Positions 36,820-56,136 of a stretch of DNA of 56,136 nucleotides are shown in pieces (position 1 is the first letter of the stretch; each line of letters opens with the position of its first letter). A program made the position numbers and the translations under genes. Origin of the DNA: Bacteroidaceae bacterium (GTDB lineage: Bacteria > Bacteroidota > Bacteroidia > Bacteroidales > Bacteroidaceae). The stretch covers positions 1-56,136 of the forward strand of contig JAFUVZ010000059.1 in assembly GCA_017471185.1 (NCBI GenBank), given 5' to 3'. A model generated the notes under the pieces. It had not been told where the DNA came from, searched no databases, and saw only the letters and a program-made list of their open reading frames with translations.

Positions 36820-37115
36820 CTAATGTGTACTGATAATCAGGGAGTTACGCTATTTTACCCCCCTTTTTTTGAAATAAAGAGGTAAAATTGACTTTTTGGA
36901 TGACGTGAGTGAGTATGGGAATAATTATTCTTTTCCCTATTGTTGAATACATTTTGCTGAAGTATTATTATTAATATTCTGCAAAGATTGTTAAAATTTG
37001 ATTAAGCTCCGCTTTGCTTCTAGAGGTTATGCTGAATCAAATTTTCGTCAATTTTGGTTTTATCATTATTTTATCACTTATAACTGTTGTTAAAACATTT
37101 TTTCTTTATAGAAAA

Positions 37116-37208: not shown

Positions 37209-37417
37209 GGTAACGGATTGGGAGTTATTTTTTTTATTTGGTAACGGATTGGGAGTTATTTGGTAACGGATTGGGAGTTATTTTTCATTCCTTACACTTG
37301 CATGTAAAATGTGGTAATAAATATTTACAATAATTCATCGTTATTTTGTGATTTTATATTGTTTTATACTGAAGTAGCCGTTGATATTCATGATTGGTAA
37401 CGGATTGGGAGTTATTT
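37209..37417. other. iterons, probable plasmid replication origin
   Basis: Four identical copies of a 22-base repeat beginning GGTAACGGATTGGGAGTTAT start at 37209, 37240, 37262 and 37396 (two are directly adjacent). They lie in AT-rich sequence 135-340 bases before a Rep gene, the standard layout of an iteron-controlled theta origin. Confidence 0.88.
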
Positions 37418-37552
37418 TGTTTTCTATATATTCAGACTGTTGTCTTCCCTTTTTTTTCGAAGAAGCTGCTGGATTGTTAACTGTAAGAAAAGGGATTTGC
37501 ACTTTGTTTTTATTTTCTCTATATTTGCTGTCGAAATTAAAAACTACACATT

Positions 37553-39170: not shown

Positions 39171-39210
39171 ATTGGGGAGGTGCTACAAATATAGCATCTC
39201 CCCAATTTTA
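39171..39210. terminator. bidirectional hairpin between convergent genes
   Basis: A 15-bp stem ATTGGGGAGGTGCTA / TAGCATCTCCCCAAT (one G-T pair) with a short loop, followed by TTTTA on the plus strand. It overlaps the stop codon of the recombinase gene. Confidence 0.8.
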
Positions 39211-39813
39211 TGACTTCCATTCTTTTTTTGGTCTTCCCGGGTTTTCTCTTAGTTTTACCTTACCTGTCCGGAGATATCTGTAAAGAGTTGCTGTTGAGAT
39301 TTTCAGCGACTGGCAGATGTCATCAGATGTCATTTTCTGCTTATACAAATCACATGCTGCCTTTGCCACAATCTTCCTGTCTTCTGTTAAACCTTTCCTT
39401 CTTCCTAACTGAACACCTCGTTCTCTTGCTGCAGCAAGACCTGCATTTGTTCTCTCTATCATTAGATTTCTTTCAAGCTCTGCGAAGGCTCCTACGATAG
39501 ATAGGAAACAGATACCCATTGGTGTGGTAGTATCAATGTTGTTGGTCAGACATATGAAATCTACCTGTCTCTTTCTGAATTCTTCAATCAAAGACAAAAG
39601 GTGACTCAGACTTCTTGCCAGTCTGTCTAATTTCCAAACCACCAACTGGTCACCTTGTCGAAGATACTTCATCATTTTTTCCAATTCCGGTCTCTCTTTT
39701 ACCGAACTTTTCTTTTCCTTGTAAATAATGTCACAGCCAGCTTTTTCCAAAGCCGAAATCTGTAAATCCAAATTTTGGTCAGTCGTACTGACACGTGCAT
39801 AGCCAATTTTCAT
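39208..39813 (-). CDS. serine recombinase (resolvase/invertase)
   Basis: 201 residues. N-terminal catalytic domain MKIGYARVSTTDQNLDLQISAL with the nucleophile Ser 9 (ARVST), VWKLDRLARS, FAELERNLMIERTNAG; C-terminal HTH SDDICQSLKISTATLYRYLRTG. Small resolvases resolve plasmid multimers or invert DNA; here multimer resolution next to rep is the simplest role. A -7 box TAAATTTGT lies on the minus strand at 39837-39845. Confidence 0.92.
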   Translation of the reverse strand: MKIGYARVSTTDQNLDLQISALEKAGCDIIYKEKKSSVKERPELEKMMKYLRQGDQLVVWKLDRLARSLSHLLSLIEEFRKRQVDFICLTNNIDTTTPMGICFLSIVGAFAELERNLMIERTNAGLAAARERGVQLGRRKGLTEDRKIVAKAACDLYKQKMTSDDICQSLKISTATLYRYLRTGKVKLRENPGRPKKEWKS

Positions 39814-40436: not shown

Positions 40437-40799
40437 ATGAAAAAAAATTTTATGAAAACCATCAGTAAAATGAGGAAATCAATGTCACCAGCACTGGTAA
40501 GGTGCATGGTGGTGGCGGTGTGTATGCTGGCGGTAGCCGGTGATATATACGCAGGCAGTGCTGGAGCAAGTCAAGTTCAAAATGCTATTGAGACTGATAT
40601 AGGTGCATACTGGGGCCCTACAAAGCTTGGCTTGAGAATTATCGGCGGTATATTGGCGGGTGTAGGTGGATTCCGTGTATACAACAAATGGTCAAACGGT
40701 GATCAGGATGTACAGAAGACAATGGTGTCATGGATAGGAGGTATAGCTTTCGTGCTATTGGTTCCGACGATTATTGAAGCTGTGTTCGGGATAGGATAA
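40437..40799 (+). CDS. DUF4134 family protein (TraE/VirB2-like pilin)
   Basis: 120 residues. A signal-like N-terminus (VRCMVVAVCMLAVAGDIYAG) and two hydrophobic helices (LGLRIIGGILAGVGGFRVYNKW and TMVSWIGGIAFVLLVPTIIEAVFG). This is the DUF4134 pattern, corresponding to TraE of Bacteroides conjugative transposons, a VirB2-like pilin. The DUF4133 gene follows by 8 bases as in those elements. Confidence 0.85.
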   Translation: MKKNFMKTISKMRKSMSPALVRCMVVAVCMLAVAGDIYAGSAGASQVQNAIETDIGAYWGPTKLGLRIIGGILAGVGGFRVYNKWSNGDQDVQKTMVSWIGGIAFVLLVPTIIEAVFGIG

Positions 40800-40807
40800 T
40801 AATAAAA

Positions 40808-41098
40808 ATGGAAAACAGGGAATTTAATGTCTATAAGGGACTACAAAAACCAATCGTACTCTTCGGACTCAAAGGCTCGAACATAGCTTGGGCAGCGGGG
40901 ACGATAGCGGCGGTAGCGATCGTGTTTATCTTGGCGTCATCAATGACCGGGACAGTGCCGTCAATATTGGCGGCACTGGTACCGGCAGCAGTGGGCGGGT
41001 ACAAGATAAACTACAAGGCGAAAAACGGACTGCACGAGAAGAAAAGGCACAAGGGCGTGATATTGGTAAGGAAGACAATGTCTCCTCTGGTGAAATAA
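40808..41098 (+). CDS. DUF4133 family protein (TraF/VirB3-like)
   Basis: 96 residues, two hydrophobic segments after the N-terminal YKGLQKPIVLFGLKGSNIAWAAG. This matches DUF4133, corresponding to TraF of CTnDOT-type elements and VirB3 in type IV secretion. In conjugative elements a VirB4-like TraG normally follows; here it does not. Confidence 0.85.
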   Translation: MENREFNVYKGLQKPIVLFGLKGSNIAWAAGTIAAVAIVFILASSMTGTVPSILAALVPAAVGGYKINYKAKNGLHEKKRHKGVILVRKTMSPLVK

Positions 41099-41132: not shown

Positions 41133-41378
41133 ATGAACTACGTTGAGAAAATAATGAAACTGGAAGAACTGACCGACAGGATAAAGAAAGGCCGGACAGG
41201 AACTCAGATCCAGCTGGCAAAGGAGATGCATACGTCCAAGACCTCACTCAACCGATGGTTCAGTGAGCTGAAAGACATGGGTGCGGAAATAGAGTTCGAC
41301 AGAATCATGAACACCTATTATATTAATAACGAGTTCACCATCCATGTGGAGGTGACAGTAAACGACAGAAGACAATGA
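41133..41378 (+). CDS. small helix-turn-helix protein
   Basis: 81 residues. MKLEELTDRIKKGRTGTQIQLAKEMHTSKTSLNRWFSELKDMGAEIEFDRIMNTYYI fits an HTH_11/DeoR-type DNA-binding domain with a short wing. It may regulate the downstream GldK-fimbrillin array (inference from position). The start could also be the second ATG at 41154. Overlaps the next frame by 4 bases. Confidence 0.6.
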   Translation: MNYVEKIMKLEELTDRIKKGRTGTQIQLAKEMHTSKTSLNRWFSELKDMGAEIEFDRIMNTYYINNEFTIHVEVTVNDRRQ

Positions 41379-41644
41379 AAGCGAACCTGGTCATATCCGT
41401 CATCATAGACGGTAAGGACGTATCGACGACATTCGGTACGAAAGAGATAGAAGGCATGGACCCTGCACTGATGGCACAGCTGCTGAAGGTGTTCGGAGAC
41501 ACACAGAAGAAGACAAAGGCCACAGTGGAAAGGTACTATGGCACGGAAGAGACAACGGATGGACAGGAAGGACGTCCGGAAGAGACACAGGCAGGAGATG
41601 AAGACCGCCAGCCTGCTGAGGAAAAGGAGAACGGAACGGTCTGA
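41375..41644 (+). CDS. small hypothetical protein with acidic tail
   Basis: 89 residues. NLVISVIIDGKDVSTTFGTKEIEGMDPALMAQLLKVFGDTQKKTKATVERYYG then a charged tail. No family recognised. It overlaps the HTH gene by 4 bases and ends 22 bases before the GldK-like start, so all three are probably one transcript. Confidence 0.55.
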   Translation: MKANLVISVIIDGKDVSTTFGTKEIEGMDPALMAQLLKVFGDTQKKTKATVERYYGTEETTDGQEGRPEETQAGDEDRQPAEEKENGTV

Positions 41645-41666: not shown

Positions 41667-43649
41667 ATGAAAAAGGCAATTTGCAGACAATACGGGAGAG
41701 GCACCGCGGCGGTGGCACTGGCAGTCCTGCTGCTAACGACAGGGACGGTGACGAGCGCAGGGACAGCCAGGGCACAGAAGGACGGCGTATATACCAACGC
41801 CTTCCGTGACAACTGGGAGGTGTCATTCGGTGCGGAGGGGATGTCATTCTTCTCCGGAAGGGAGAAAGGGACGGGACTGTCAAAGAACCCGTTCAAGGAC
41901 TTCCGCACGTCACTGGGCGCGGCGGCGTCAGTGACTAAATGGTTCACACCGCAGATAGGACTGCGCACGAAAGCGTCAGGATACTGGGGGAAGGCGTTCT
42001 CCATAAACGGGGACGGCACGCCGGAGAAAGAGACGGTGCGGTTCTACTCCTTCCAGGAACAGGTGATGGTCAACCTGACCAACATCATCTGGGGATACCG
42101 TCAGGCACGCAGATGGGACCTCATACCGTACGCGGGAGCGGGATTCGTACGCATAGCCTCACACAACGAGAACTCCCTGGGAGCGTCACTGGGCGTGAGG
42201 AACACACTCAGGATCGGCAGCCATGTCAAGCTGCACCTCGACGCAGGGGTGAGCTTCGCCGGAGAGAACTACAGGTCGGCAGGGCTGAGGACAGTCATGG
42301 GCAAGTACCGATGGTACTCACTCGAAGCGGGGCTGACATTCAGCCTGGGACGGAGGACGTGGACGACGGCAGGCAGCAGATACGCCGCACAGTCACCGCA
42401 GCTGTACCCCGTCAGCGGACGGAAGGCACGCAAGGCGGCAGGGTCACTGGCGGACGCTGAATACACGCACATAACGGCACAGGGGCCGGTACCGGAAGGG
42501 ATGGCGCTCGTGAGCCGCGGACACGTACGCATGGGAATAGGCGACCGTGACAGCCTGTGGGACGCGCAGACACCCCTGCGCGACATATCGGTGGATGACT
42601 TCTGGATGGACCGCACGGAGGTTACGAACGCACAGTACAGGGCGTTCATAGACGATGTGAAGGAAAGGCTCGTCATGTCAATGGTGACTGACTCCACGTC
42701 ACTGTACTTCGGTGACAGGACGGGAGCGGAGGAGAGCCTGTACAGGACAAACGCCGTGACGGGAGAGAAGACTCTCGACGGCGGCAGGCTGCTGTTCAGC
42801 TACGAGACATACGACCGTCTGGAATCCATGAGGAAGGAATACAGGGAAGGCGTACCGGTGACAAAGGACACCGCATACATAGACAACGGCAGGATCATAC
42901 GCCAGAGGCTGACAAGGCCGCACACGTCGGAATATGACTTCGTAAACACATACATAACCCAGATATACCCCGACACCACGGTGTGGGTGAACGATTTCCC
43001 AGGCGCGGACAACGGGCTGTACGCGAGGTACTACTTCTCACACCCGGACTATAAGGACTATCCCGTCGTAGGCGTGACATGGGAGCAGGCGATGGCATAC
43101 TGCGCATGGCGCACGCAGAAGATGATGGAGGAGATGGGTGACGCATACGGAGACACGCAGCCGTTCCGCCTGCCTACGGAGGCAGAATGGGAATATGCGG
43201 CGAGAGGAAACGGACAGGACACCTTCCCCTGGGAAGAGGCGCAGGCCGGACAGGGAAGAGCGATGTTCAAGGCCAACTTCATGGCGGCGGAGGGTGACTA
43301 CACACGAGACGGCAACATCATAACCTCACGCGTGGGAATATTCCCCGCAAACGGCAACGGACTGTACGACATGGCGGGCAACGTGGCGGAATGGACGATG
43401 ACGCCTTACACCGTGAGGGGCGTGGACGGGACAAGCAACATCAACCCCTACCTGGAGGATAAGGACAACACCGTGAGGAGCGTACGCGGCGGGTCATGGA
43501 AAGACCCGGAGAGCCATATACGCTCAGCATGGAGGCAGAAGGAATACAAGGACACTCCAAGGTCATACATAGGCTTCCGCTGCGTGAGACCGATAGCCTC
43601 CAAGCCATCAGAGAAAGCGGTGGTGGTCATCACCGGCAGGAAAAGATAA
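41667..43649 (+). CDS. GldK/PorK-like protein fused to an N-terminal beta-barrel
   Basis: 660 residues. Signal peptide ending TSAGTARAQ; residues about 45-230 are alternating strands (NWEVSFGAEGMSFF, WFTPQIGLRTKASGYWG, WYSLEAGLTFSLGRR), an OmpA-like outer-membrane barrel. Residues about 275-640 are the FGE-sulfatase (SUMF1) fold seen in GldK/GldJ/PorK: PEGMALVSRGHVRMGI, VTNAQYRAFI, PTEAEWEYAARG (503-514), LYDMAGNVAEW (566-576), RGGSW and GFRCVR. Canonical GldK is a lipoprotein; this one has no lipobox cysteine and uses a barrel instead. It starts the GldK-L-M-N order of type IX secretion and gliding. Confidence 0.85.
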   Translation: MKKAICRQYGRGTAAVALAVLLLTTGTVTSAGTARAQKDGVYTNAFRDNWEVSFGAEGMSFFSGREKGTGLSKNPFKDFRTSLGAAASVTKWFTPQIGLRTKASGYWGKAFSINGDGTPEKETVRFYSFQEQVMVNLTNIIWGYRQARRWDLIPYAGAGFVRIASHNENSLGASLGVRNTLRIGSHVKLHLDAGVSFAGENYRSAGLRTVMGKYRWYSLEAGLTFSLGRRTWTTAGSRYAAQSPQLYPVSGRKARKAAGSLADAEYTHITAQGPVPEGMALVSRGHVRMGIGDRDSLWDAQTPLRDISVDDFWMDRTEVTNAQYRAFIDDVKERLVMSMVTDSTSLYFGDRTGAEESLYRTNAVTGEKTLDGGRLLFSYETYDRLESMRKEYREGVPVTKDTAYIDNGRIIRQRLTRPHTSEYDFVNTYITQIYPDTTVWVNDFPGADNGLYARYYFSHPDYKDYPVVGVTWEQAMAYCAWRTQKMMEEMGDAYGDTQPFRLPTEAEWEYAARGNGQDTFPWEEAQAGQGRAMFKANFMAAEGDYTRDGNIITSRVGIFPANGNGLYDMAGNVAEWTMTPYTVRGVDGTSNINPYLEDKDNTVRSVRGGSWKDPESHIRSAWRQKEYKDTPRSYIGFRCVRPIASKPSEKAVVVITGRKR

Positions 43650-43678
43650 CAATATCAACAAGACAAACGGTAACGGTT

Positions 43679-44197
43679 ATGAAATACTCAAGATTCAATA
43701 TCATTTACAGGCTGCAGAAATGGATGGACAGCGTGGCGGGACAGACGTTCCTCAACTACGCCTACTCATGGGGCGCGTCAATAGTTATCCTGGGAACGCT
43801 CTTCAAGCTCACACACATGCCGTCGGCAGACCTGTGGCTGTTCCTGGGCATGGGGACGGAGGTGCTGGTGTTCTTCATATCGGCCTTCGACCGTCCGTTC
43901 GACAAGACGCTGGATGGCATGGCACTGCAGAACTCCGTGACACAGGGCATGGCGCCGCAAAGCCAGGGCATGCAGGATGTCAACACCGGCAAGGCGAACG
44001 GCAAGGCGCATGAGGAGGCGGAGAGGATGGTCAAGGCTATCAGCGAGGCATACCGCAGGCAGCTGGAAAGCATAGAGGAAGGCACGCGCGTGAGCGAGGA
44101 CATAAGCCGCGAGCTCAAGCAGCAGGCATACGAGCTGTCAAGGATAAGCAGGACAATGGCGGGCGTAAGCAAGGCCGTCGCAGGAAAGAGCGAGTGA
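43679..44197 (+). CDS. GldL/PorL-like proton-motor stator protein
   Basis: 172 residues. Two membrane helices near the N-terminus (NYAYSWGASIVILGTLFKLTHM, then DLWLFLGMGTEVLVFFISAF) with Lys 43 and Glu 61 placed like the charged residues that GldL/PorL need to use the proton motive force. The C-terminal helix-rich half is cytoplasmic. Family knowledge: GldL pentamers surround a GldM dimer in a rotary inner-membrane motor. An upstream in-frame start lies inside gldK and was rejected. Confidence 0.9.
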   Translation: MKYSRFNIIYRLQKWMDSVAGQTFLNYAYSWGASIVILGTLFKLTHMPSADLWLFLGMGTEVLVFFISAFDRPFDKTLDGMALQNSVTQGMAPQSQGMQDVNTGKANGKAHEEAERMVKAISEAYRRQLESIEEGTRVSEDISRELKQQAYELSRISRTMAGVSKAVAGKSE

Positions 44198-44235
44198 GAG
44201 ACCTAAGTTTTACCCTATATATATAAATAAGGTAT

Positions 44236-45792
44236 ATGGCAATAAGGAAAAGACCGGTGTCACCAAGGCAGAAGATGATAAACCTGATGTACGTCATCCT
44301 CATGGCCATGCTGGCGCTCAACGTGGACGGTGACGTGCTCACAGGCTTCGACCGCATAGACGGGAGCCTGACACGCACCGTGGCGGCGGCAAGGAAGGAG
44401 AACATGCTCATGTATGACAGCCTGGCGGCGCTGATGGGGATAAACCCCGTCAAGACGGAGCCATGGAACGAGAAGGCCGAGGAGGTGAGACGCGCAAGCG
44501 AGAGGATGATGCGCATGACAGTGAGCCTGAAGGACATGATAGCCCGTGAAGCGGACGGCAAGGACAGTGATCCTATGGATCTCCGTAACAAGGAGGATAT
44601 GGAGGCCGTGGCGCAGGTGATGCTCTCACCCGTGAACGGCAAGGGACGCGAGCTCAGGGAGGCGATAGAGGCGTACCGCGACCTGGCGGTGTCAGTGACA
44701 GCCGACCCTGAGAAGAGAAGGCTCATAGCCGACAACCTGTCAACGGACGTGCCGCAGGGTGCCAGTGGCAAGGACTGGGAACACTATATGTTCGAATCCA
44801 TGCCGGCGGTGGCGGCGGTGACGTTCCTGACAAAGCTGCAGGCGGACATCACGCAGGCGGAACGCGAGGCGCTGCACACGCTGCTGGCGTCGATAGACGA
44901 GGGTGACATGCGCATGAACGCCTTCCGCGCGGTGGTGGTGCCGTCCTCACTGACAGTGGTCAGGGGTGGCGAATTCAAGGCCGGCGTGATGATGGCCGCG
45001 GAGGACACGACGAGCGTCTGGGACATGTACATCGACGGAAGGAAGGTGGATTACAACGACGGACAGTACTCCCTGAGAACAGGACAGACGGGCGAGCATA
45101 CGCTCAGCGGATACCTGCAGATGACGGGACGTAACGGCGGGACCGTACGCAGGGAGTTCACACAGAGATATACGGTCATAGATCCCATAGCAACAGTATC
45201 GGCGGACATGACGAACGTGCTGTACGCAGGCTATGACAACCCCGTAAGCGTCAGCGTGCCGGGACACTCCCCTGGCGAGGTGAAAGCCGTCATGGAGGGA
45301 GGAGTCCTGACACAGCTGGCACCGGGAAAATACACGGCAAGACCCTCAGGAGAGGGAGAGGCCTCCATAAGCGTATCCGTCACGAAGGACGGAAAAGTTA
45401 CCGACATGGGACGCTACGCGTTCCGCGTGCGCCAGCTGCCTGACCCCACGCCCTACATACCGGTGACGGACGGCGAGGGACGGACAAGGCGCTACAGAAG
45501 CGGAGCGATACCCAAGGCATCGCTGGCAGAGGCTACGGAGCTCAGGGCGACCATAGACGACGGCATACTGGACACACCCTTCAGGGTGACATCCTTCGAG
45601 GCGGTGTTCTTTGACAGCAGAGGCGACGCCGTGCCGGTGGCATCCGACGGGCCGCGATTCTCCGAGAGGCAGAAGGACACGTTCCGACAGCTGGCACGGG
45701 GCAAGAGGCTCTACATCACCAGGGTGACGGTGACGGGTCCCGACGGGGCGTCAAGGACGCTGGACAGCTCCATGGAGCTGATAGTAAGGTAA
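44236..45792 (+). CDS. GldM/PorM-like motor shaft protein
   Basis: 518 residues. The opening SPRQKMINLMYVILMAMLALNV is the hallmark GldM membrane helix. The large remainder is periplasmic and should form the four-domain shaft that reaches the outer-membrane GldK/GldN ring; ending LDSSMELIVR. Length is near that of typical GldM. Located directly after gldL, as expected for the motor pair. Confidence 0.92.
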   Translation: MAIRKRPVSPRQKMINLMYVILMAMLALNVDGDVLTGFDRIDGSLTRTVAAARKENMLMYDSLAALMGINPVKTEPWNEKAEEVRRASERMMRMTVSLKDMIAREADGKDSDPMDLRNKEDMEAVAQVMLSPVNGKGRELREAIEAYRDLAVSVTADPEKRRLIADNLSTDVPQGASGKDWEHYMFESMPAVAAVTFLTKLQADITQAEREALHTLLASIDEGDMRMNAFRAVVVPSSLTVVRGGEFKAGVMMAAEDTTSVWDMYIDGRKVDYNDGQYSLRTGQTGEHTLSGYLQMTGRNGGTVRREFTQRYTVIDPIATVSADMTNVLYAGYDNPVSVSVPGHSPGEVKAVMEGGVLTQLAPGKYTARPSGEGEASISVSVTKDGKVTDMGRYAFRVRQLPDPTPYIPVTDGEGRTRRYRSGAIPKASLAEATELRATIDDGILDTPFRVTSFEAVFFDSRGDAVPVASDGPRFSERQKDTFRQLARGKRLYITRVTVTGPDGASRTLDSSMELIVR

Positions 45793-45822
45793 GGCAGGAT
45801 ATCAATCTAATAATATGATGAC

Positions 45823-46050
45823 ATGGAAAAGCTGATAATTTGTGACAAGTATATAGTCAATCTTGAAAAAGTGGAGATGATAGAAGCCAATGAGGATGAG
45901 AACATGATGATAATCCATTTCCCGCAAGAAAAAATTAAGATAAGCTAAGGGAAAGGACAGGATGTTTCAAGCCTCATGCGAGACTTGATTGAAAGTCTGG
46001 AATTACAAGATGATGATTATAGTGTAACGATGGAAATAAATGAAATTTAA
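45823..46050 (+). pseudogene. small gene interrupted by an in-frame TAA
   Basis: A frame of 76 codons opens at 45823 (MEKLIICDKYIVNLEKVEMI) and stops at TAA (45946-45948), then continues in the same frame without further stops to 46050 as SSLMRDLIESLELQDDDYSVTMEINEI. The two halves read as one small acidic protein of about 75 residues, so a point nonsense change is likely. Either the 41-residue form is the product, or the gene is broken. Between gldM and gldN; no family recognised. Confidence 0.6.
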
Positions 46051-46057
46051 AAAATAT

Positions 46058-47056
46058 ATGGAAATGAGAAGGAAGAATCTACTGGTTGCGCTCTCTCTGG
46101 CAGCAGCGACATCAGCCGTGGCACAGGGACAGTGGAGCCGCGAGGTGTACCGGGAGCTGGACCTGAGGGACTACGCCAACCAAGGGCTGTACAGCCCACG
46201 AACAGCGGAGGGCGACAACAGGGGACTGTTCGCACCACTCATGGAAAGGGCGCTGGAAGGCGGCGTGACGCTCTACGCCTACGCCGTGAGCGGCAACGAG
46301 ACATTCACGCCCGAAGGGACGGTGGACGTCAGGGACGTGCTGGACGCCTATGACATACCCTTCACCGTCAGGGACGGTAAGGTACTCGTCAAAGGCTCCG
46401 ACATGCCGTCACAGGAAGTGACGCGCTACTACATACGGGAACGCAGGTACTTCGACGGCACGGACTCGTCGTTCCGCAGCGAGGTGACGGCCATCTGCCC
46501 CGTGCTGGAGAGAGGCGACGGCCTTTCCGAAGGCCTGACACGCTATCCCATGTTCTGGGTGATCTGCAGCGACGTAAGGGACTTGCTGGAAGACACGCCC
46601 GTGGTGGCGGACTACCGTAATACCGGCCGGGCGATGAGCGCGGCGGACTATTTCGCCCTGGGAAGATACAAGGGTTCCATATACAGAGAACGAAACGCCA
46701 TGGGACTGCCGCTCTCATACGGTGATCCGTCTGACTCGGCCTATGCGGCAGAGCAGCGGAGGGTGGAGAAGGAGCTCGTGACGGTAAGGGAAAAGACCTA
46801 CGACACATACTATACGGAAGCACTGGCGGAGCCGGAGCCTCAGTACCGCAGGTTCCTCTTCTTCAAGATAAAGAAGAAAGCGACGAAAGCGCAGTATGAC
46901 GCGCAGGCTGTGAAGGCTCAGGCGTCTGACACCGGAGTGAAGGAGGACACCGCCGTGAAGGCAGAGGAGACGGCTGATGGCGGAGAAGAGCCCGCCAAGC
47001 CCGGTGAGAAAAGGGAAAGGAAAGGATTCTCACTATTCAAGAGGAGGAACAGGTGA
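46058..47056 (+). CDS. GldN/PorN-like protein
   Basis: About 332 residues. Signal peptide (RRKNLLVALSLAAATSAVAQG) then QWSREVYRELDLRDYANQGLYSP, the GldN/PorN start, and the body (LFAPLMERALEGGVTLYAYAVSGNETF) characteristic of the family. GldN binds GldK at the outer membrane ring. The C-terminus has an unusual Lys/Glu-rich tail (KKKATKAQYDAQ, KRERKGFSLFKRRNR). The start at 46058 was chosen for its A-rich leader; 46040 overlaps the interrupted small gene. Confidence 0.85.
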   Translation: MEMRRKNLLVALSLAAATSAVAQGQWSREVYRELDLRDYANQGLYSPRTAEGDNRGLFAPLMERALEGGVTLYAYAVSGNETFTPEGTVDVRDVLDAYDIPFTVRDGKVLVKGSDMPSQEVTRYYIRERRYFDGTDSSFRSEVTAICPVLERGDGLSEGLTRYPMFWVICSDVRDLLEDTPVVADYRNTGRAMSAADYFALGRYKGSIYRERNAMGLPLSYGDPSDSAYAAEQRRVEKELVTVREKTYDTYYTEALAEPEPQYRRFLFFKIKKKATKAQYDAQAVKAQASDTGVKEDTAVKAEETADGGEEPAKPGEKRERKGFSLFKRRNR

Positions 47057-47742
47057 TGAAAAAAGACGTTAAACAAGAAACAGGAATGGCGAAGACCGGG
47101 GCGATAATGCTCCTTTCCCTGCTGTTGGCATTCCCCTTCAGGATGGCGACGGCACAGGAGGTCTATCGTATGGAAACGCCGGCGGCGGCGGTGATGCTCA
47201 GGACGAACGCCCTGTATGACCTGGCTCTCTCACCCAACGTGGGCGTGGAGATACAGACGGACCTCGGCCTGGCTTTCCAGCTGGACTATGTGGGGGCGTG
47301 GTGGAACTCACGCGAGAGAAACCGCTACTTCTCCAACTACGCCTTCCAGAGCGAGATAAGGTACTACCTGGACAGCTGGCGCATGCCTATGCCGTACAGG
47401 GGACACCACATAGGGTTCTACGGACAGATGGCAACCTATGACTTCGAGTTCGGAGGCAAGGGCTACATGAGCCGTAACCTGGACAAGAGCTTCGGCCTGG
47501 GACTGAGCTACGGATGCTCGCTGGCCCTGGGACGCAGGTGGAACCTCGACCTCACCGTGGGCTACGGATGGTTCCACACGACCTACGACGTGTACCATCC
47601 CGACGGTAAGGGAGGGTTCCAGTACGATGAGACACACGTGAGGAACTTCTTCGTGCCCACGAAGCTGGAGGCGTCGCTGGTATGGCTGCTCAACGGCGCC
47701 AATGACATCAAACACATCAAACGTAAGAACGGGAGGAGATGA
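47053..47742 (+). CDS. DUF3575-like outer-membrane barrel protein
   Basis: 229 residues, N-terminal signal region followed by strands: VMLRTNALYDLALSPNVGVEIQTDLGLAFQLDYVGAWW, FGLGLSYGCSLALGRRWNLDLTVGYG. This fits DUF3575 proteins that accompany fimbrillin operons of Bacteroidales and probably help pili reach the surface. Overlaps gldN by 4 bases, which links the motor genes to the pilus genes in one transcript. Confidence 0.75.
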   Translation: MMKKDVKQETGMAKTGAIMLLSLLLAFPFRMATAQEVYRMETPAAAVMLRTNALYDLALSPNVGVEIQTDLGLAFQLDYVGAWWNSRERNRYFSNYAFQSEIRYYLDSWRMPMPYRGHHIGFYGQMATYDFEFGGKGYMSRNLDKSFGLGLSYGCSLALGRRWNLDLTVGYGWFHTTYDVYHPDGKGGFQYDETHVRNFFVPTKLEASLVWLLNGANDIKHIKRKNGRR

Positions 47743-47743
47743 T

Positions 47744-48721
47744 ATGAGTACAAACAGACACAATATCCATATATGCGCATGGGCGGTGGCGGCCGTGGTG
47801 GCTCTGGCTTCATGCGACTACAAGGACATAGGTCCCGGCCACGAGACGGTACAGAGGGGGCAGCCCGTGGAGCTGCGCTTCGACTTCTCCAGGGTGGACA
47901 GCGTGCCGGCATCGTACAGCATCATGTTCTACCCTGCGGGTGACAAGGCCAGGAGCTTCCGGCGTGACGTGACGGCGAGTGACCAGACCATACTGCTGCC
48001 CGTGGGAGACTACGCCGTGACGGCATGGAACAATGACACACCGCACGTGCTGGTGGAGGAGCAGGACAACCGTGACAGGGTGAGCGCCACGACATTCGGA
48101 CTGGAGACAAGGACGGAGATAAGCGCGGAGTCAGTGCTGGACAGCATCTTCGGCGGACAGAAGCTGTTCGACTGGCCGGACTACCTGACAAAGGCCAACG
48201 TGGAGGAGTTCGCTGTGGACGAGGACACGGAGGTACCGCCCGTGCTGACACTCACGCCCGACAGCGCGACGGTGACGGTGCACTACCGCATAGGTGGCGT
48301 GAAAGGCCTGGGATGGTGCTACCGTGTCAAGGGAGCGCAGAACAACGTGTGGGGCAGGAGGTTCCTGGCCTATGAGGAAATGGGAGGCGATGCGGTGTCC
48401 GTGATGTTCGAGAGCGGCTACGACGAGAAGGAGGAGACCGTCTTCGGCGAGTACCAGATATTCGGACTGGCGGACGGCGGGCAGGTCATGCAGGACAGGG
48501 ACAGGCTCGTGCTCTTCTTCTGGCTGCAGAACGGCAACGGCGGGTATGTGCCTATAGACATCACCAGGGCGCTAGCTCCCTACAGGAACAGGACGGTGAG
48601 GCACATATACATAGACATCCCCGACCTGGACGTCAACCTCATCGACTTCCTCGACGGTGACGACGCGTTCAACATAGACATCAACGAATGGCAGAACGTG
48701 AACATTGACATAAGGATTTAG
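47744..48721 (+). CDS. fimbria-associated lipoprotein (DUF5119-like)
   Basis: 325 residues, lipobox VVALASC (Cys 24). RGQPVELRFDFSRVDSVPASYSIMFYPAGDKARSFRRDVTASDQTILLPVGDYAVTAWN begins a fimbrillin-like N-terminal beta domain, and the C-terminus ends FNIDINEWQNVNIDIRI. Such proteins are pilus accessory or anchor subunits. It starts 1 base after the DUF3575-like gene. Confidence 0.75.
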   Translation: MSTNRHNIHICAWAVAAVVALASCDYKDIGPGHETVQRGQPVELRFDFSRVDSVPASYSIMFYPAGDKARSFRRDVTASDQTILLPVGDYAVTAWNNDTPHVLVEEQDNRDRVSATTFGLETRTEISAESVLDSIFGGQKLFDWPDYLTKANVEEFAVDEDTEVPPVLTLTPDSATVTVHYRIGGVKGLGWCYRVKGAQNNVWGRRFLAYEEMGGDAVSVMFESGYDEKEETVFGEYQIFGLADGGQVMQDRDRLVLFFWLQNGNGGYVPIDITRALAPYRNRTVRHIYIDIPDLDVNLIDFLDGDDAFNIDINEWQNVNIDIRI

Positions 48722-48762
48722 TTAATGGAAAATGGATAATGGAAATTATAATAAATGAATGG
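48722..48762. repeat. short heptamer repeat on the mobile element
   Basis: Units of type AATGGAA / AATGGAT with period 7, the same kind of repeat as in the chromosomal first 15 kb, right before the first fimbrillin gene. Confidence 0.65.
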
Positions 48763-48815
48763 TGATATAGAACCAGATACAGTTAACTTTTTGTTTAATT
48801 TAATTTTTTTTCAAG

Positions 48816-50000
48816 ATGAGAAAAACTATTCTTTTCGCGGCTATGGCCGCAGTGGCAGCTGGCTTCGCGAGCTGCAGTAATGATGACAGCGTCATCGAGT
48901 CACAGGCAATCGGCAAGGTGCAGAAGGAGATGATGGGCTTCGTAGCCAACAGCAACCGTCAGGCCGGCACACGCGGCACTGAGATCACCACCGCCAATGC
49001 AAACACCATGGTGCCATCGTTCCAGGTATGGGCATACGGCGCTGCTGCCAACGGCGCATCGGCTACCGTAGCTCCGGGCAACGACTACATGGGCGCCGCA
49101 GGCACGCTGGTGAGCCGTAACGCTTCAGGCGAGTATTTCCCAGCATCACCGGTCTATTGGCCTGAGGCTGCATCTAAGCTGGACTTCCAGGCTATCGCGC
49201 CTGCTACCGACGCCTCTTACCAGAGCGGCTCGCCTGCGCTGACCCTGGACGACACCAAGAAGTACGGCCGTCTGCAGGCTACCGTGGTCATCCCATCGGC
49301 AGTGGCAGACCAGAAGGACATCATCTTCGCCAAAGCTGACGCCAAGAACACAGACGTGGCTGGCGTTACCGACGGCAAGGTGGCCCTGACCTTCGACCAT
49401 GCCCTCTCACAGGTGCTCTTCAGCGCACGCGTGGCTTCCGCTTCCATCAGCGCTACCATCAACAGCGTGGCTGTGTGCCAGGTGGAGAACAAGGGTACCG
49501 TAGGCTACATCACCGCCAACGGTGACAAGTATGACCTCGGCGTATCACTGCCTGTAGAAGCACAGAAAGGCTGGCAGGCTGAGTTCCCTATCGGTCTGAA
49601 CGCTTCTCCTGTAGCGCTGACATCTACCAGCGCAGTGAACATCACCGCTGAGAACGGCGCACTGATGATGCTGCCACAGACAGTGAGCGCATGGACAACA
49701 GCTGCGGGTGCTGCCGTGCCTCTGACAACAGCCCAGACCAACCACAACAGCTACCTGAAGATCCACTGCACAGTGACCGACCTGGGTTCAGGCACCAACA
49801 TCATCAACGACCAGGATATCTACATCCCTCTGGCTGTCAACTGGGTACAGGGCAACAAATACACCTACACCCTGGTATTCGGTGAGGGCGAGGGCGCTTT
49901 CGACGAGAACGGAGATCCTATCGTGACACGCGTGCCAATAGGCTTCACCATGACCGTGAACGCATGGAACGCTGTTGACGGCGGTGAGATCGCATTCTAA
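48816..50000 (+). CDS. fimbrillin family protein, probable major pilin
   Basis: 394 residues, lipobox AAGFASC (Cys 20) with the N-terminal QKEMMGFVANSNRQAGTRG opening of fimbrillin/Mfa-like pilins and a C-terminal strand VPIGFTMTVNAWNAVDGGEIAF. In type V pili such lipoproteins are exported, cleaved and joined by donor-strand exchange. Unlike its neighbours, it uses host-like codons (CGT, ATC and CTG in place of AGG and ATA), and a terminator follows it, suggesting much higher expression than the downstream minor subunits. Confidence 0.85.
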   Translation: MRKTILFAAMAAVAAGFASCSNDDSVIESQAIGKVQKEMMGFVANSNRQAGTRGTEITTANANTMVPSFQVWAYGAAANGASATVAPGNDYMGAAGTLVSRNASGEYFPASPVYWPEAASKLDFQAIAPATDASYQSGSPALTLDDTKKYGRLQATVVIPSAVADQKDIIFAKADAKNTDVAGVTDGKVALTFDHALSQVLFSARVASASISATINSVAVCQVENKGTVGYITANGDKYDLGVSLPVEAQKGWQAEFPIGLNASPVALTSTSAVNITAENGALMMLPQTVSAWTTAAGAAVPLTTAQTNHNSYLKIHCTVTDLGSGTNIINDQDIYIPLAVNWVQGNKYTYTLVFGEGEGAFDENGDPIVTRVPIGFTMTVNAWNAVDGGEIAF

Positions 50001-50021
50001 CGGAACGGTTCCGGGAATACG

Positions 50022-50124
50022 CCTGCGGGGAAACCCGCAGGGCGTAATGATTAATTTCTTCATACATTCGAGGCGGCCTGTCCTTCCACAGCCCTAACAG
50101 GCGGAACGGCAGGCCGCCCTTTTT
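50022..50124 (+). terminator. hairpin pair between the first and second fimbrillin genes
   Basis: CCTGCGGG-GAAA-CCCGCAGG (50022-50041) and GGCGGCCTG / CAGGCCGCC (50072-50080 with 50110-50118) followed by CTTTTT. The second is terminator-like and may attenuate downstream genes to raise the share of major pilin. Confidence 0.7.
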
Positions 50125-50147
50125 AAACATGCAAAAGGACAATTACG

Positions 50148-51290
50148 ATGGGAAAGATAACGACACTCCTAAACATGACCCTCTGCCTCCTGGCCACGAT
50201 AGTGGCGGGATGCACCGACGAGGTCACCGGCACAGGGGGTACTCCTTACCGTGACGGCGGGTCAACCATTGCGTTCCACGCCGGCTGCCCCGGCACGGAG
50301 GCGGAGACCAGGGGTATGCAGCTCACTGCCGCCAAGACGGTATCCTTCGGCGTCAGCGCCTCATACTACACCTCGGGGACCTACGCCACGGCTCCCTGCG
50401 GCTCATACTTCCTCAACCAGCAGGTGCTCACGGCCATAGGCAACAGCGGACAGATGTGGCCGGGGGCTGAATACACGCTCTCGTTCTTCGCCTATGCCCC
50501 CTACTCCAACCTTGTGGGCATAGTGTCGGGAGACGATCCCGGCAGACCGGTATATACCTATACCGTACCCACTGACATCACCTCGCAGATAGACTTCATG
50601 ACGGCCGAGAGCCTGGAGGTAAACGGTGCGGAGACGACAGACCCCGTGGTCCTGTCTTTCTCACACCGTCTTGCAGACATACGCTTCAGCGTCTATAACG
50701 AAGGAGAGAACGACATGACCGTGCACTCCATAGCGCTGCACGGACTAAAGTACAGCGGCACCTATGATGATGAAAACGGATGGATCCTGGACTCTGCCGT
50801 CAACAGCGCCTCGCAGCACCCGTTCAAGCTCGACCTGGGCAGCAAGAGCGACCCCGATGACGGCGTCACCGTGGAGCCGCTGCAGGAGTCAGGCGAGGTG
50901 ACTGGCACGGCCGACCATTTCATGATGCTGCCGCAGACGGTCGCCTCCGGCACACAATGGCTGGAGATTGACGCTACCATCAACGGCACACGCCAGCTAT
51001 GGCATCACGCGCTGCCGTCCGGCCTTACCCTGTCCATGGGACAGTCATACGGCATAAGGCTCCGCATGGGCTACAACCATATAGGCGTCGAGATCATCTC
51101 TATCGAGGACTGGACGTTCGGAGCTGACTATTCTTCAGCGACTCCTCGTGAAAGAACGGAAGGAAATATAGACACCGAGGATATCGGCAACTGGTCACAG
51201 CAGTCCGACGAGTCAGGTGCTACACCCAGACAAAGGGAAGGTTCCGACCAGCAGGCCACAGGCATAGAGGACTGGACAGCGCAGGAATAA
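50148..51290 (+). CDS. fimbrillin family minor subunit
   Basis: 380 residues, lipobox ATIVAGC (Cys 22). IAFHAGCPGTEAETRGMQLTAAKTVSFGVSASYYTSGTYATAP and YTLSFFAYAPYSNLVGIVSG match fimbrillin-like proteins. The C-terminal third (IEDWTFGADYS... GIEDWTAQE) carries a duplicated ED-W-T segment. Probably a minor or shaft-tip adaptor subunit. 44 bases before the large tip gene. Confidence 0.8.
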   Translation: MGKITTLLNMTLCLLATIVAGCTDEVTGTGGTPYRDGGSTIAFHAGCPGTEAETRGMQLTAAKTVSFGVSASYYTSGTYATAPCGSYFLNQQVLTAIGNSGQMWPGAEYTLSFFAYAPYSNLVGIVSGDDPGRPVYTYTVPTDITSQIDFMTAESLEVNGAETTDPVVLSFSHRLADIRFSVYNEGENDMTVHSIALHGLKYSGTYDDENGWILDSAVNSASQHPFKLDLGSKSDPDDGVTVEPLQESGEVTGTADHFMMLPQTVASGTQWLEIDATINGTRQLWHHALPSGLTLSMGQSYGIRLRMGYNHIGVEIISIEDWTFGADYSSATPRERTEGNIDTEDIGNWSQQSDESGATPRQREGSDQQATGIEDWTAQE

Positions 51291-51334
51291 ATATAATCAA
51301 ATGTCTGACAAATACTAATATAAATAATAAGGAA

Positions 51335-53614
51335 ATGAAAAAGACAGAAAAAACAAACAGACGCTTCATGCCGGCGCTCATGCTGGCACTGGCAGGCATG
51401 ATGCCGCTCGCGTCATGCTCGGATGACGCTTTCGAGAAAGCGGCGGGTAACGTGACTAAGGATGACGGCAGGTCCATCCTCGTGGAGGTGGACAGCGAGA
51501 CGCCGGACGCGGACACCAGGACGCAGTACAACCTGGCGGCATGGCACACCGAGTTCGCCTCGGGCGACGAGATAGGAGTGTTCGCCTACAACGGAACAGA
51601 CCCGGTGGCATCCAATATAAAGTTCACATACGACGGTACACGATGGAACGGAGAAGTGACGATACCATACAACGAGAACTATACATATTTCGCTTACTAT
51701 CCGTATGCAGGTGAAAGGAACAACCCGCCCTACACGGTAGGTACGTCAGGCACCGTGGACTCGCGCTTCTCAAGCTTCATCAGCGACTCCAACAACAAGT
51801 TCCACTATGCTGACCAGTCCACGGCGGCGAACTTCGCCAAGTCGGACTATATGCACGCACAGGGTACGGACGCAGGCTTACGCACCATCACCTTCACCAT
51901 GCAGCACAAGAAAGCGCTGGCGGTGATAGGACAGACCGTCAACAAATGGTATGACACCACAGATCCGATGACACCGCATGACACCTACGTCACCTTTTCG
52001 GATAACATACCCTATACTTCAGGGGACAACAGGTATTTCCTGTGCAAGAACAACGTGGTCACGACTGTCGGCGGCACAAGTTTCACGGGACAGGGAGGCA
52101 AGTACGTCATCAAGGACGCTTCGGTGCTTACAGGCACACCCAGCTTCACCTATTCGGTATCGACGGACGGAGGAAACACATGGGGATACTTTTCCTCAAA
52201 TAGACCGTCCTGGCTGACCGTGACGGGAGACGTGGCAAGCGGTGAGCCTACTGACTTCAATGTTACAATGACAAACAGTAAGACAACAGAACTCTCACTG
52301 GGTCCCGTTACTTTCAGGAACGTACCGAACGATGATATCCTCAAGGCTGCCTCCGCAGTCTCTAATGTGGATCTGTCAATGATGAAAAACGACGGCACGT
52401 CAAGGGGCTCACGCACCACAGCCAACTGCTATCTGGTACACGCGCCCGGCACGTACAGGCTGCCGCTGGTCTATGGCAACGCCATCAGGAACGGTGACGA
52501 GAGCTCTAGCTCATCGTTCTATACCACACAGACGAGCAACACCCTGCAGCGACTGGTCAACCATCTGGACCAGGGCATCACAGCGCCATGGATCAAGGAC
52601 AACGGCATAACCGTCGATGGCGGCAGGCTCATCTGGGAAGACGTAAAGGGCATGATAAAGAATGTCGCTGTCAGCGGTGACTACCTCACCTTCGAGGTTA
52701 ATGCTGACAAAATAGCAGAGGGTAACGCCGTCATTGCAGCCACGGCATCAGGCACGACCGTCTGGTCATGGCATATATGGGTCACAGCCGAGACACTTAC
52801 CTATACGACATCCGTACCGGTTGACGGCAGGGCGAACCCATACATCGTCACTCCCGTCAACGTGGGACAGATCAACGGCACATGCGAGACAGGTACAATA
52901 TATGCAGGCAGCCAGTGCAAGGTAAGGGCCACCGGTACGGGAGGAACAGTGGAATTCCTTGTCGTGCAGCCCGACTATCTGCACAGCAATACATATTACA
53001 ACCCTTCCCCTTATTACCAGTGGGGCAGGAAAGATCCGATGTTCTCTCCTATAGGAGCGTATGACGCAGGCGGCAACGCGCTGACATACAGCACAAGTGA
53101 CGCAACCTCATATGTCAGCTCTACAGACACGACCATAGGCAGCACGATTCAGAACCCACGCATATGGTATTACAACTCGTCTAGCACCGGGCCTTACGGC
53201 AACGGTACCAATGCGAAGAAATACAATTACTGGGACATGAATAACACATCGGCAGATGATAATGACCTTACCCCTACCGTAAAGACAGTTTATGATCCAT
53301 GCCCACCGGGCTTGTGTATCCCGACTGGTGGGCTATACGTATATATAAAAAGAAATTATTCGTCATACTTCCCGTGGGACACTAACAGACGTACATGGAC
53401 GAAGAACATACCAAACATCACATTCCCCGCGGCGGGCTATCGTGACTACATTAACGGTAGTCTCAAATATGCCGGTGACTACGGCAACTATTGGTCGGTG
53501 TCGCCCGTCAATAGTACGAACGGCCGCGCGCTGGGCTTCACTTCAAGTAACGCCAGCTGGGTCTACGACTACCACTCTAGCGGTTACCCCGTCCGCGCGG
53601 TGCTCGAAGAATAA
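51335..53614 (+). CDS. large fimbrillin-like lipoprotein with FISUMP/C-type-lectin-like C-terminus
   Basis: 759 residues, lipobox MPLASC (Cys 28). The first part (EVDSETPDADTRTQYNLAAWHTEFASGDEIGVFAYNG, GEVTIPYNENYTYFAYYPYAG) is a fimbrillin-like N-domain; a BACON-like module follows near residue 275 (RPSWLTVTGDVASGEPTDFNVTMTNS). The final 130 residues (YDPCPPGLCIPTGG, WTKNIPNITFPAAGYRDYINGSLKYAG, GNYWSVSPVNSTNGRALGFTS, SGYPVRAVLEE) are of the FISUMP/CLec type used by diversified pilus-tip adhesins. It probably forms the pilus tip. A GC-rich hairpin lies 22 bases past the stop codon. Confidence 0.82.
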   Translation: MKKTEKTNRRFMPALMLALAGMMPLASCSDDAFEKAAGNVTKDDGRSILVEVDSETPDADTRTQYNLAAWHTEFASGDEIGVFAYNGTDPVASNIKFTYDGTRWNGEVTIPYNENYTYFAYYPYAGERNNPPYTVGTSGTVDSRFSSFISDSNNKFHYADQSTAANFAKSDYMHAQGTDAGLRTITFTMQHKKALAVIGQTVNKWYDTTDPMTPHDTYVTFSDNIPYTSGDNRYFLCKNNVVTTVGGTSFTGQGGKYVIKDASVLTGTPSFTYSVSTDGGNTWGYFSSNRPSWLTVTGDVASGEPTDFNVTMTNSKTTELSLGPVTFRNVPNDDILKAASAVSNVDLSMMKNDGTSRGSRTTANCYLVHAPGTYRLPLVYGNAIRNGDESSSSSFYTTQTSNTLQRLVNHLDQGITAPWIKDNGITVDGGRLIWEDVKGMIKNVAVSGDYLTFEVNADKIAEGNAVIAATASGTTVWSWHIWVTAETLTYTTSVPVDGRANPYIVTPVNVGQINGTCETGTIYAGSQCKVRATGTGGTVEFLVVQPDYLHSNTYYNPSPYYQWGRKDPMFSPIGAYDAGGNALTYSTSDATSYVSSTDTTIGSTIQNPRIWYYNSSSTGPYGNGTNAKKYNYWDMNNTSADDNDLTPTVKTVYDPCPPGLCIPTGGLYVYIKRNYSSYFPWDTNRRTWTKNIPNITFPAAGYRDYINGSLKYAGDYGNYWSVSPVNSTNGRALGFTSSNASWVYDYHSSGYPVRAVLEE

Positions 53615-54780: not shown

Positions 54781-55455
54781 CTATATCTTCAACCCCCTCC
54801 TTCTCACATTTGACAGGATAGGGAAGTCCTTGTAGATTTTATCAGGATGCCTGGCCATGTCATTCAGCCTTTTCTGGATGAGCTTCCAGTCATACTTTCC
54901 GGAAATAAGGTTGACAGGCTCGCCCTGAATGACGTCATCATAATACAGAAGGGCCTTCATGACAGCCATTGTGCTTGCACCCTGATATTTCCTGGCATAA
55001 TCGGCAAGCATATCGTTAAGGGAAAACTTTGTAGAGAAGAAGGAGACATCCACAAAATCCTTTTCCCTGTCGCCTGAATCCGTGATTGCGGAAAGCTTCA
55101 TCGCCAGAATGTCCGGAATGCCACTGACCCTGATACCGTCCTCGATGGTAACAGGGGATATGTCCGGGTAATCATATCTGATACAATCGATAAATACCCC
55201 GTCAATCTCACCTTTCAAGGCCTGGGATTCGGAAAACCTTTCCTTAAAGCCATACTCGCCTGCCAGATGCCGCCTCAATCCGCCAACATCAAATTCCCTT
55301 TTGGAGAACAGGTCGAGGTCAATGCTCTTCCTGTGTCCTAAATACAGGGACAGGGCTGTGCCGCCAACCAGGTTGAACCCATCCAGCATGGGGTCCTGCA
55401 TCAGCGATTTCAGAATCCTATACGTTCCCGTCTCAATGACTTCCTTCTGTAACAT
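54781..55455 (-). CDS. AbiEii-type nucleotidyltransferase toxin
   Basis: 224 residues. NLVGGTALSLYLGHRKSIDLDLFS is the AbiEii nucleotidyltransferase motif (GGTALSL...RxSxDLDLF). These toxins transfer nucleotides and are neutralised by a partner antitoxin. The gene overlaps the next minus-strand gene by 46 bases, typical of a coupled pair. Confidence 0.87.
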   Translation of the reverse strand: MLQKEVIETGTYRILKSLMQDPMLDGFNLVGGTALSLYLGHRKSIDLDLFSKREFDVGGLRRHLAGEYGFKERFSESQALKGEIDGVFIDCIRYDYPDISPVTIEDGIRVSGIPDILAMKLSAITDSGDREKDFVDVSFFSTKFSLNDMLADYARKYQGASTMAVMKALLYYDDVIQGEPVNLISGKYDWKLIQKRLNDMARHPDKIYKDFPILSNVRRRGLKI

Positions 55456-55733
55456 TCCATTTCTTCCTTTTTCAGATTAAACAAAAAACAAGCCCAGTTC
55501 AGGTCTTTGCCCGACAGACTGGGTATCCTCCGCACAATCTCCGCCGTCTTCTCAAAGCCACCGTACATCTGCAGGAGGGCGTAATAGTCATTTGCCTCAC
55601 CGTACTGTATCACACGCTGAGCGACACGGGGAGCCATGACATTCCAATCCCACTCGGGAGAAGTGGTATCATAGTCCCACAAAATGACAGGGGACACGGA
55701 CTGCCGGGGATATGTCTTGTAATCGTCAAACAT
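55410..55733 (-). CDS. DUF6922-like partner of the AbiEii-type toxin
   Basis: 107 residues. SPVILWDYDTTSPEWDWNVMAPRVAQRVIQYGEANDYYALLQMYGG fits the small helical proteins that precede AbiEii-like genes in Bacteroidota and probably acts as the antitoxin or its regulator. It starts 16 bases after a -7 box and overlaps the toxin gene. Confidence 0.75.
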   Translation of the reverse strand: MFDDYKTYPRQSVSPVILWDYDTTSPEWDWNVMAPRVAQRVIQYGEANDYYALLQMYGGFEKTAEIVRRIPSLSGKDLNWACFLFNLKKEEMECYRRKSLRRERIGF

Positions 55734-55757: not shown

Positions 55758-56136
55758 CACTTTTTCCCGCAATCAGCCAAACAATGGCGGGAAATTGTAT
55801 ATCCATGGCAGGAAAGGAAGTCTCTTCCTTTCCCTATCGTTCCATCCTGTCTTCGCCGGTTTTCCGAAAGCGGAGAGGGAACATCCTACCATCACTTTTT
55901 CCCGACAGGAGGCTTACCCCCACTCCGCTCCAGGCATCAGCTTCCCCGTGGCAAAGGTATTGCGCTGCATGTCTTTGTCAAGGCCGGGGCGGCAAGCCGT
56001 CATTTCCGGAAATCTCCACGCCTTACGGGTAGTATTTCCCTCATGAGCCTTGACAAAGACACTCCACTGACCATGATTATGCCACAGGAAGCTGAAGCCA
56101 GCGGGCTCAGGTAAGCTCCAATCCTGTCGGAAATTG
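55758..56136. other. 379-base non-coding stretch at the window end
   Basis: Spurious frames only. It contains a 14-bp inverted repeat GTCTTTGTCAAGGC / GCCTTGACAAAGAC (55971-55984 with 56047-56060) around a 62-base GC-rich core. No template repeat resembling the tip gene's C-terminal region and no RNA gene was recognised. Confidence 0.4.

Follow-up and report, generated by a model that had tools for sequence, protein, structure and literature searches.

A GldKLMN motor set with a predicted barrel-GldK fusion beside type V-like pilus genes on an integrative mobilisable element of a Bacteroidaceae bacterium

A gliding-type motor set and pilus genes on one element

The stretch of 56,136 nt analysed here (the window) comes from a gut bacterium (Bacteroidaceae bacterium assembly GCA_017471185.1, contig JAFUVZ010000059.1, positions 1 to 56,136, forward strand) and carries a complete gldKLMN set that is followed on the same strand by a type V-like pilus operon, both being located on an integrative mobilisable element. 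It is proposed that this cassette might encode a portable GldL-GldM motor that works independently of the type IX secretion system (T9SS), has a track linked covalently to an outer-membrane barrel, and exerts its force on the type V-like pilus; this reading is put forward tentatively, at somewhat less than an even chance. Its more specific form, a transferable, T9SS-free and proton-driven machine that moves type V pili through a GldK-GldN track fused to the barrel, with the lipoprotein pilus as its load, is to be held with more reserve.

With respect to gene content, which was assessed with Pfam and NCBIfam models at their curated cut-offs, the canonical order claimed in the original prediction of this locus holds, since all four proteins exceed their NCBIfam cut-offs and are encoded one after the other on the plus strand: GldK (41667..43649; TIGR03525, 369 bits, cut-off 350), GldL (43679..44197; TIGR03513, 80 bits, cut-off 68.3), GldM (44236..45792; TIGR03517, 495 bits, cut-off 180) and GldN (46040..47056; TIGR03523, 128 bits, cut-off 85.9, and a Pfam match). 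Downstream of gldN and on the same strand, Pfam models identify a DUF3575 protein (47053..47742; E = 3.4e-34), a DUF5119 lipoprotein (47702..48721; 2.6e-23) and two fimbrillin-like lipoproteins of the Mfa_like_1 family (48816..50000 and 50148..51290; 1.4e-17 and 1.9e-21), and the run is completed by a 759-aa lipoprotein, possibly a tip adhesin (51335..53614). The predicted 4-base overlap of gldN (46040-47056) with the DUF3575 gene (47053-47742) was likewise found. While the genes do lie on one strand throughout, the gaps between them are not always of a few bases as had been stated, with 247 bases separating gldM from gldN, and 94 bases preceding and 147 bases following the first fimbrillin gene. 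Also, only two of the three genes described as fimbrillin-type match Mfa_like_1, the third (51335-53614) being below every Pfam and NCBIfam cut-off, so that its label is supported by a lipobox and its position only. Three features had been overlooked, namely the fusion of an OmpA-type barrel to GldK, the shortness of GldL and a tRNA-Ser at the start of the element.

All main frames of the cassette are open. Its G + C content amounts to 51-59% over 41-53 kb vs 34-37% over 37-40 kb, and both the high G + C content and a positive AT skew are common to the region of about 41-53 kb. Between gldM and gldN there is a short open reading frame of low G + C content (45824-45949), the frame of which resumes past an in-frame stop.

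The barrel-GldK fusion

The first gene of the cassette encodes a protein of 660 aa, counted from the ATG at 41667, in which a barrel part is followed by GldK. The barrel part matches OmpA-type barrels in genomes of the host genus (E-values of up to 3.6e-21) and an OmpA-family protein of Bacteroides finegoldii (1e-13), where the match precedes the Pfam OmpA domain; no Pfam or NCBIfam model matches the barrel of the window itself. Judged by its sequence, this is an OmpA-type barrel fused ahead of GldK.

PorK has been described as a lipoprotein that assembles into rings together with PorN (PMC4980022), and in 2025 a disulfide coupling was reported in which SprF and PorG are bonded to one cysteine of GldK/PorK on the moving track, this cysteine tying GldK to its outer-membrane clients (PMC12635249). 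The window GldK has neither the lipobox nor the client cysteine of the T9SS protein, a methionine (Met533) being present at the client-linking position. The client cysteine is present in 70 of 77 aligned GldK rows; some of these rows are near-duplicates or stem from one genome fetched more than once, part of the repeats having been omitted, as were fragments of less than 440 aa other than the 341-aa Cardinium protein. The seven rows without it are the window GldK, three long GldK proteins with leucine from another Bacteroidales family (f20), two copies with valine from f72 genomes, and the GldK of Cardinium plasmid pcBtQ1 with asparagine. In the three f20 genomes the ordinary GldK retains the cysteine, and each f72 genome has, in addition to its valine copy, a second copy with cysteine; in these two genomes (L107 and L108) both copies reside in PorP-GldKLMN operons. 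By a loose pattern, a lipobox can be found in 65 of 66 ordinary GldK proteins of at least 440 aa and in none of the four long, barrel-type ones. The two other cysteines of the GldK fold (SME-fold) are kept in 75 and 77 of the 77 rows, respectively, the window included. Most simply, the fused barrel would stand in for the lipid anchor as well as for the client held by the disulfide. In such a case the window protein would share with the gliding track (PMC12635249) the covalent coupling of an outer-membrane barrel to GldK, with the difference that the link is a gene fusion here and the SprF/PorG disulfide there.

In a search of 393 genomes of the taxonomic order, three genomes of family f20 were found to carry a second GldKLMN set with a GldK of 720-729 aa, this count of long proteins being taken among the matches listed, so that more long GldK frames may exist. 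When compared by BLASTP with one of them (L104), the window protein aligns from residue 122, which lies inside the barrel, to residue 641 with 32% identity over 571 columns. The first part of the f20 proteins aligns with the window only in the multiple alignment, and no family model names it; the extension is likely a barrel as well. These second sets thus resemble that of the window in having a long GldK alignable from within the barrel onward that lacks both lipobox and client cysteine, but differ from it in standing beside an ordinary GldK and in lacking pilin genes. In approximately unbiased (AU) tests, with groupings chosen only once the sequences had been viewed, a union of the window with the f20 proteins was rejected for GldM (p = 0.0058) and not rejected for GldK (p = 0.07); the two barrel fusions may well be of separate origin. 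A further long frame was seen in genome G005 (L041, 10398-17999), where an open frame of 2533 aa or more ends in a GldK domain and is followed by GldLMN, FGE-sulfatase being the sole domain recognised in this frame.

Condition of the motor

GldM has all four of its Pfam domains and matches the solved PorM structure over residues 3-517. In the 172-aa GldL, E61 aligns with the glutamate of transmembrane helix 2 (TMH2) that is conserved in 15 of 15 alignment rows; it was equated by its TMH2 position with E49 of Flavobacterium johnsoniae GldL, a protein absent from the alignment, for which this residue has been reported to be essential (PMC8986121). With both proteins above their curated cut-offs and the glutamate in place, the conserved residues and domains suggest that GldL and GldM form a proton-driven inner-membrane motor.

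Origin of the gld genes

In a GldM tree of 68 rows (repeat fetches and rows of less than 480 aa left out) the window GldM falls into a nine-row set (support 97/96) together with five Prevotellaceae rows and three rows of its own family, and apart from the host genus, represented by eight chromosomal GldM, with which a single clade is rejected (p = 0.0047). A placement within the chromosomal clade of the host had been named beforehand as the outcome that would speak against a separate cassette, and the window GldM lies outside it. In the same direction points a tree of the GldK domain with 54 rows (from which, to limit its size, 16 of the 19 short genus loci were omitted), in which the window belongs to a six-row set (100/98) and is by path nearest to Prevotellaceae rows (L042-L046), one clade with the host genus being rejected (p = 0.003). 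As the window has very long end branches (1.8 and 2.0 in the GldM and GldK trees, vs medians of 0.088 and 0.066) and its GldM was flagged for an odd composition, the exact placement is unsure. Still, the grouping of both proteins with Prevotellaceae suggests a foreign origin.

Outside its own genome the best GldM identity is 53%, across 200 other genomes of the family and 27 loci of a collection of named species. Viral contigs gave no match for GldM, GldL, the relaxase or DUF3575, and close relatives of the whole cassette were found neither in the family genomes nor in the named species collection, the viral contigs or plasmids, where the pattern scans of the named species and the viral contigs reach close relatives only. 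GldM matches on plasmids come from two records, one from Parabacteroides with a T9SS locus of the ordinary kind, the other Cardinium pcBtQ1. The latter resembles the window in that GldK, GldM and GldN are located on a mobile replicon and that the client cysteine is absent, and is unlike it in that its GldK lacks a barrel and no pilin profile matches nearby. In pcBtQ1 (L136, 8891-14285) a gene for a type IV secretion system (T4SS) DNA-binding protein precedes GldK by 23 bases, GldM and GldN following, which adds a second example of gld and conjugation genes side by side; the role of plasmid-borne gld genes such as these has been called debatable (PMC12342168). In the literature covered, which leaves aside most subscription journals as well as all preprints, no title or abstract dealt with a cassette joining gld or por genes to fimbrillins on mobile DNA.

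Type IX secretion in the host genome

The assembly of the host itself comprises 2.76 Mb in 85 contigs and is 80% complete. GldL and GldM occur in it as single copies, both within the cassette, and no second GldK was found at E = 1e-30. SprA, the one translocon protein searched (PorV, PorU and PorX/PorY were not), is not matched in this 80%-complete assembly, and the C-terminal domain (CTD) of T9SS cargo in the form of TIGR04183 has no match, other CTD types not having been searched. The failure to find SprA lends support to the earlier claim that the cassette is separate from a chromosomal secretion system, and the present host appears to be T9SS-free. When set beside the PorKLMN/GldKLMN energy chain of T9SS, the window thus has the same four genes of the same families in the same order, but its host assembly yields no SprA or TIGR04183 cargo, PorP is missing from the gene run, GldL is short, and GldK is fused to a barrel and devoid of lipobox and client cysteine.

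Among 158 genomes of the genus, the SprA model matches 33, of which 32 are above the cut-off, and in 33 genomes other than that of the host GldK is matched at E < 1e-80, the frames measuring 477-517 aa. All 32 genomes with SprA above the cut-off also have such an ordinary-length GldK, and the one exception among the 33 is genome G283. TIGR04183 matches in 70 of the 158, i.e. in all 32 with SprA and in 38 others with one to four matches each, and is missing from 88. The eight nearest relatives at the tRNA locus of the element (E = 0), most of them incomplete (73-90%), belong neither to the GldK nor to the SprA set. Besides the host genome, G283 (contig C110, L099) is the only genus genome with GldK but no SprA above the cut-off; there the genes form a PorP-GldKLMN run of the ordinary kind where a contig ends, and SprA may simply be missing from the draft.

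The pilus genes

A lipobox is present in the DUF5119 protein and in all three proteins that follow it, and the two Mfa_like_1 fimbrillin-family proteins with lipoboxes point to an operon of type V-like pili, the pilins of which are reported to start as surface lipoproteins (PMC12632263). DUF3575 was matched in 48 plasmid records, many of them annotated with DUF3575 beside DUF5119, and three plasmid regions that were viewed, including p5482, show the order DUF3575-DUF5119-fimbrillin. Such Bacteroides plasmid pilus units have these three families in identical order, but lack gld genes. Over 182 columns the window DUF3575 protein shares 40% identity with the DUF3575 part of a plasmid protein, and the plasmid protein extends further at its N-terminus, by a part that is OmpA-like by eye and has no Pfam match. 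The idea that the window DUF3575 is unusual for lacking this part was rejected, as annotated DUF3575 genes with lengths of 561 and 708 bases are found elsewhere beside DUF3868 or DUF6562 genes.

A force-transfer model and its alternatives

Taken together, the following mechanism may be envisaged. GldL and GldM would act as the usual proton-driven inner-membrane motor, and GldM, by homology, would push a periplasmic track of GldK and GldN. An ordinary GldK, itself a lipoprotein, engages outer-membrane barrels via a disulfide; here the barrel would be part of the GldK chain, so that the track would never be detached from the outer membrane. As it moves, the barrel might then act on the surface lipoprotein pilins that are encoded just downstream, so that the type V-like pilus would be moved or tensioned by the proton-motive force, in a gliding-like device without SprA, SprB or CTD cargo. 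While the coupling of barrel and track is suggested by sequence, the pilus as load is suggested by the order of genes in one genome, where the position of the pilin genes after gldN on the same strand was counted in favour of a link between motor and pilus.

A number of observations weigh against this proposal. It is based on one genome in an 80%-complete assembly, on a barrel recognised by sequence and on a shortened GldL that lacks the C-terminal tail of 14 compared relatives, and this loss, together with the long GldM and GldK branches, might reflect drift. The client cysteine is missing not only from fusions but also from the two f72 copies and the Cardinium plasmid copy. Since TIGR04183 also occurs in genomes without SprA above the cut-off, its absence from the host is weak evidence, and since T9SS cargo proteases of Porphyromonas gingivalis are reported to process pilins (PMC10202324), pilus and T9SS are not always separate. 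When searched with small profiles for DUF3575, DUF5119 and fimbrillin, which were derived from the window and the plasmid units, none of 50 other gld loci, several of them with short flanks, had any of these genes within the fetched flanks, nor did the three f20 loci match the pilin profiles, the typed neighbours of L104 being metabolic and transport genes. Conversely, 47 of the 48 plasmid DUF3575 records are without a GldM match, and in the remaining one, a chromosomal-looking Parabacteroides record, GldM is 63 kb away. The proposed comparison of gene linkage in relatives is hence ambiguous, as the linkage of gld and pilus genes rests on this genome.

It is conceivable, if rather unlikely, that the cassette consists of two independent cargo modules, GldKLMN as an accessory set and a pilus unit common on plasmids, which became neighbours by chance and do their own jobs, as would be suggested by pilus units on plasmids without gld, by accessory barrel-GldK sets without pilins and by the 50 unlinked loci; the shared strand, the 4-base overlap of gldN and DUF3575, and the common G + C content and AT skew are at odds with it. 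Were the two halves to work together, the motor could also power the export or assembly of pilins instead of their movement, as the original prediction held. GldLM is reported to power export in T9SS (PMC8986121), and the pilin genes are downstream on the same strand, but the translocon is not in the cassette and SprA was not found in the assembly. Given that the cysteine by which T9SS clients are engaged is missing from GldK and that type V pilins start as surface lipoproteins, export is less likely than force transfer to the barrel, and it is judged unlikely overall. What stands of the earlier view of a transferable, separate and GldLM-powered pilus or export machine is thus the mobility, the missing SprA match and the foreign GldM, whereas its export function recedes in favour of force transfer.

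Quite improbable is a role in mating, where TraE- and TraF-like proteins, motor and pili would together make or stabilise mating contacts: although genes for the former are just upstream in the same-strand run, the element has an integrase, a relaxase and a NikA-like gene, and the T4SS gene is 23 bases before gldK in Cardinium pcBtQ1, no TraG (VirB4) match was obtained in the assembly of the host, which a borrowed transfer system or a missing part could explain. That the genes are non-functional leftovers or an assembly artefact might be suspected from the draft state of the assembly (85 contigs, 80% complete), the long branches and the in-frame stop in the short frame between gldM and gldN, yet appears very unlikely given open main frames, a preserved TMH2 glutamate in GldL, preserved SME-fold cysteines and the recurrence of the att repeat on a second contig of the same assembly. 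Hardly any weight is given to a plug-in energiser for the T9SS of recipients that own SprA; here the source of GldM and GldK is Prevotellaceae-like, and the sets viewed there (L042, L051) adjoin PorP, but in the window client cysteine and lipobox are lost, PorP is not in the gene run and the present host appears T9SS-free.

If the force-transfer model is true, this would be the first case of a type V pilus driven by a motor, and also the first in which an engine of the gliding type travels between species together with its own load as one unit. It would suggest that the GldLM engine is separable from type IX secretion and able to travel on mobile DNA, and, being compact, the gene set would lend itself to testing whether pili are moved by a motor. 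The transfer of force from the GldK-GldN track to the outer membrane is a fresh question in view of the disulfide coupling reported in PMC12635249, and a natural barrel-GldK fusion with loss of cysteine and lipid anchor may be an independent clue that covalent coupling of barrel and track is a working principle.

The mobile element

The cassette is part of an integrative mobilisable element, which bears out the claim that it is located on mobile DNA. The integration site is a tRNA-Ser(gct) gene found by ARAGORN (36733..36820, plus strand, as are the window features below unless stated otherwise), and a 40-bp perfect direct repeat overlapping its end (attL, 36806..36845) has its second copy (attR) on another contig of the host, C80, at 7465-7504. 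Homology to the relative G247 ends at 36823, just past the tRNA-Ser, beyond which G247 has chromosomal genes that are TrkA-like and TrkH-like by eye (a family search was not made); this is the one clear empty site among the relatives viewed. Beside attR, C80 carries genes for a tyrosine integrase (5822-7261), with a Pfam match barely above the cut-off (28.7 vs 27.1 bits), a NikA-like protein, a relaxase and a ParA-type protein. Att repeats, integrase and relaxase are thus all present, as in integrative mobilisable or conjugative elements. The last 276 bases of the window (55861..56136) recur with 95.7% identity at the start of C80 (15-289), where the element seems to continue. As these are the sole two places of this repeat in the assembly, the element likely measures about 26.5 kb or more, provided that the window contig (C28) and C80 meet at the repeat. 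The match of the host to the TrkA-like protein of G247 is also on C80 (43433-44116), about 36 kb beyond attR, and the chromosome around the site therefore differs from that of G247. A TraG (VirB4; TIGR03783) was not matched in the assembly, where a stretch between contigs may be missing.

Behind attL, four iteron-like repeats (GGTAACGGATTGGGAGTTATTT; 37209..37422) precede a gene for a Rep3-type replication initiator (37553..38677; Pfam Rep3_C 1.2e-07, Rep3_N 5.7e-06), which has plasmid relatives of at most 28% identity, and a serine resolvase is encoded on the minus strand (39208..39813; Pfam Resolvase 1.1e-45). There follow genes for a TraE-like VirB2-type protein (40437..40799; DUF4134, Pfam 1.3e-16), a TraF-like protein (40808..41098) with a weak DUF4133 match below the cut-off (E = 0.0058) and the gene order of Prevotella plasmid pE2-28, a small protein weakly resembling helix-turn-helix proteins (41133..41378; HTH_3 E = 0.011, below the cut-off) and an 89-aa protein without Pfam match (41375..41644). 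Plasmid pE2-28 has a distant Rep (25% identity) and, after its DUF4134 and DUF4133 genes, a long tra run, the place of which is taken in the window by the gld genes.

At the far end of the window, AbiEii-like and DUF6922 genes, identified by Pfam, form a possible toxin-antitoxin pair on the minus strand (54781..55733). Near the start of C80 a 242-aa protein of no known family (737-1465, L132) is probably part of the element, too. As to the tRNA-Ser locus in relatives, the contigs of G292 (L123) and G258 (L125) end at the 3' end of the tRNA gene, as if other elements sat there, and in three more relatives (L126, L127, L128) the tRNA-Ser is inverted relative to the neighbouring deaminase gene.

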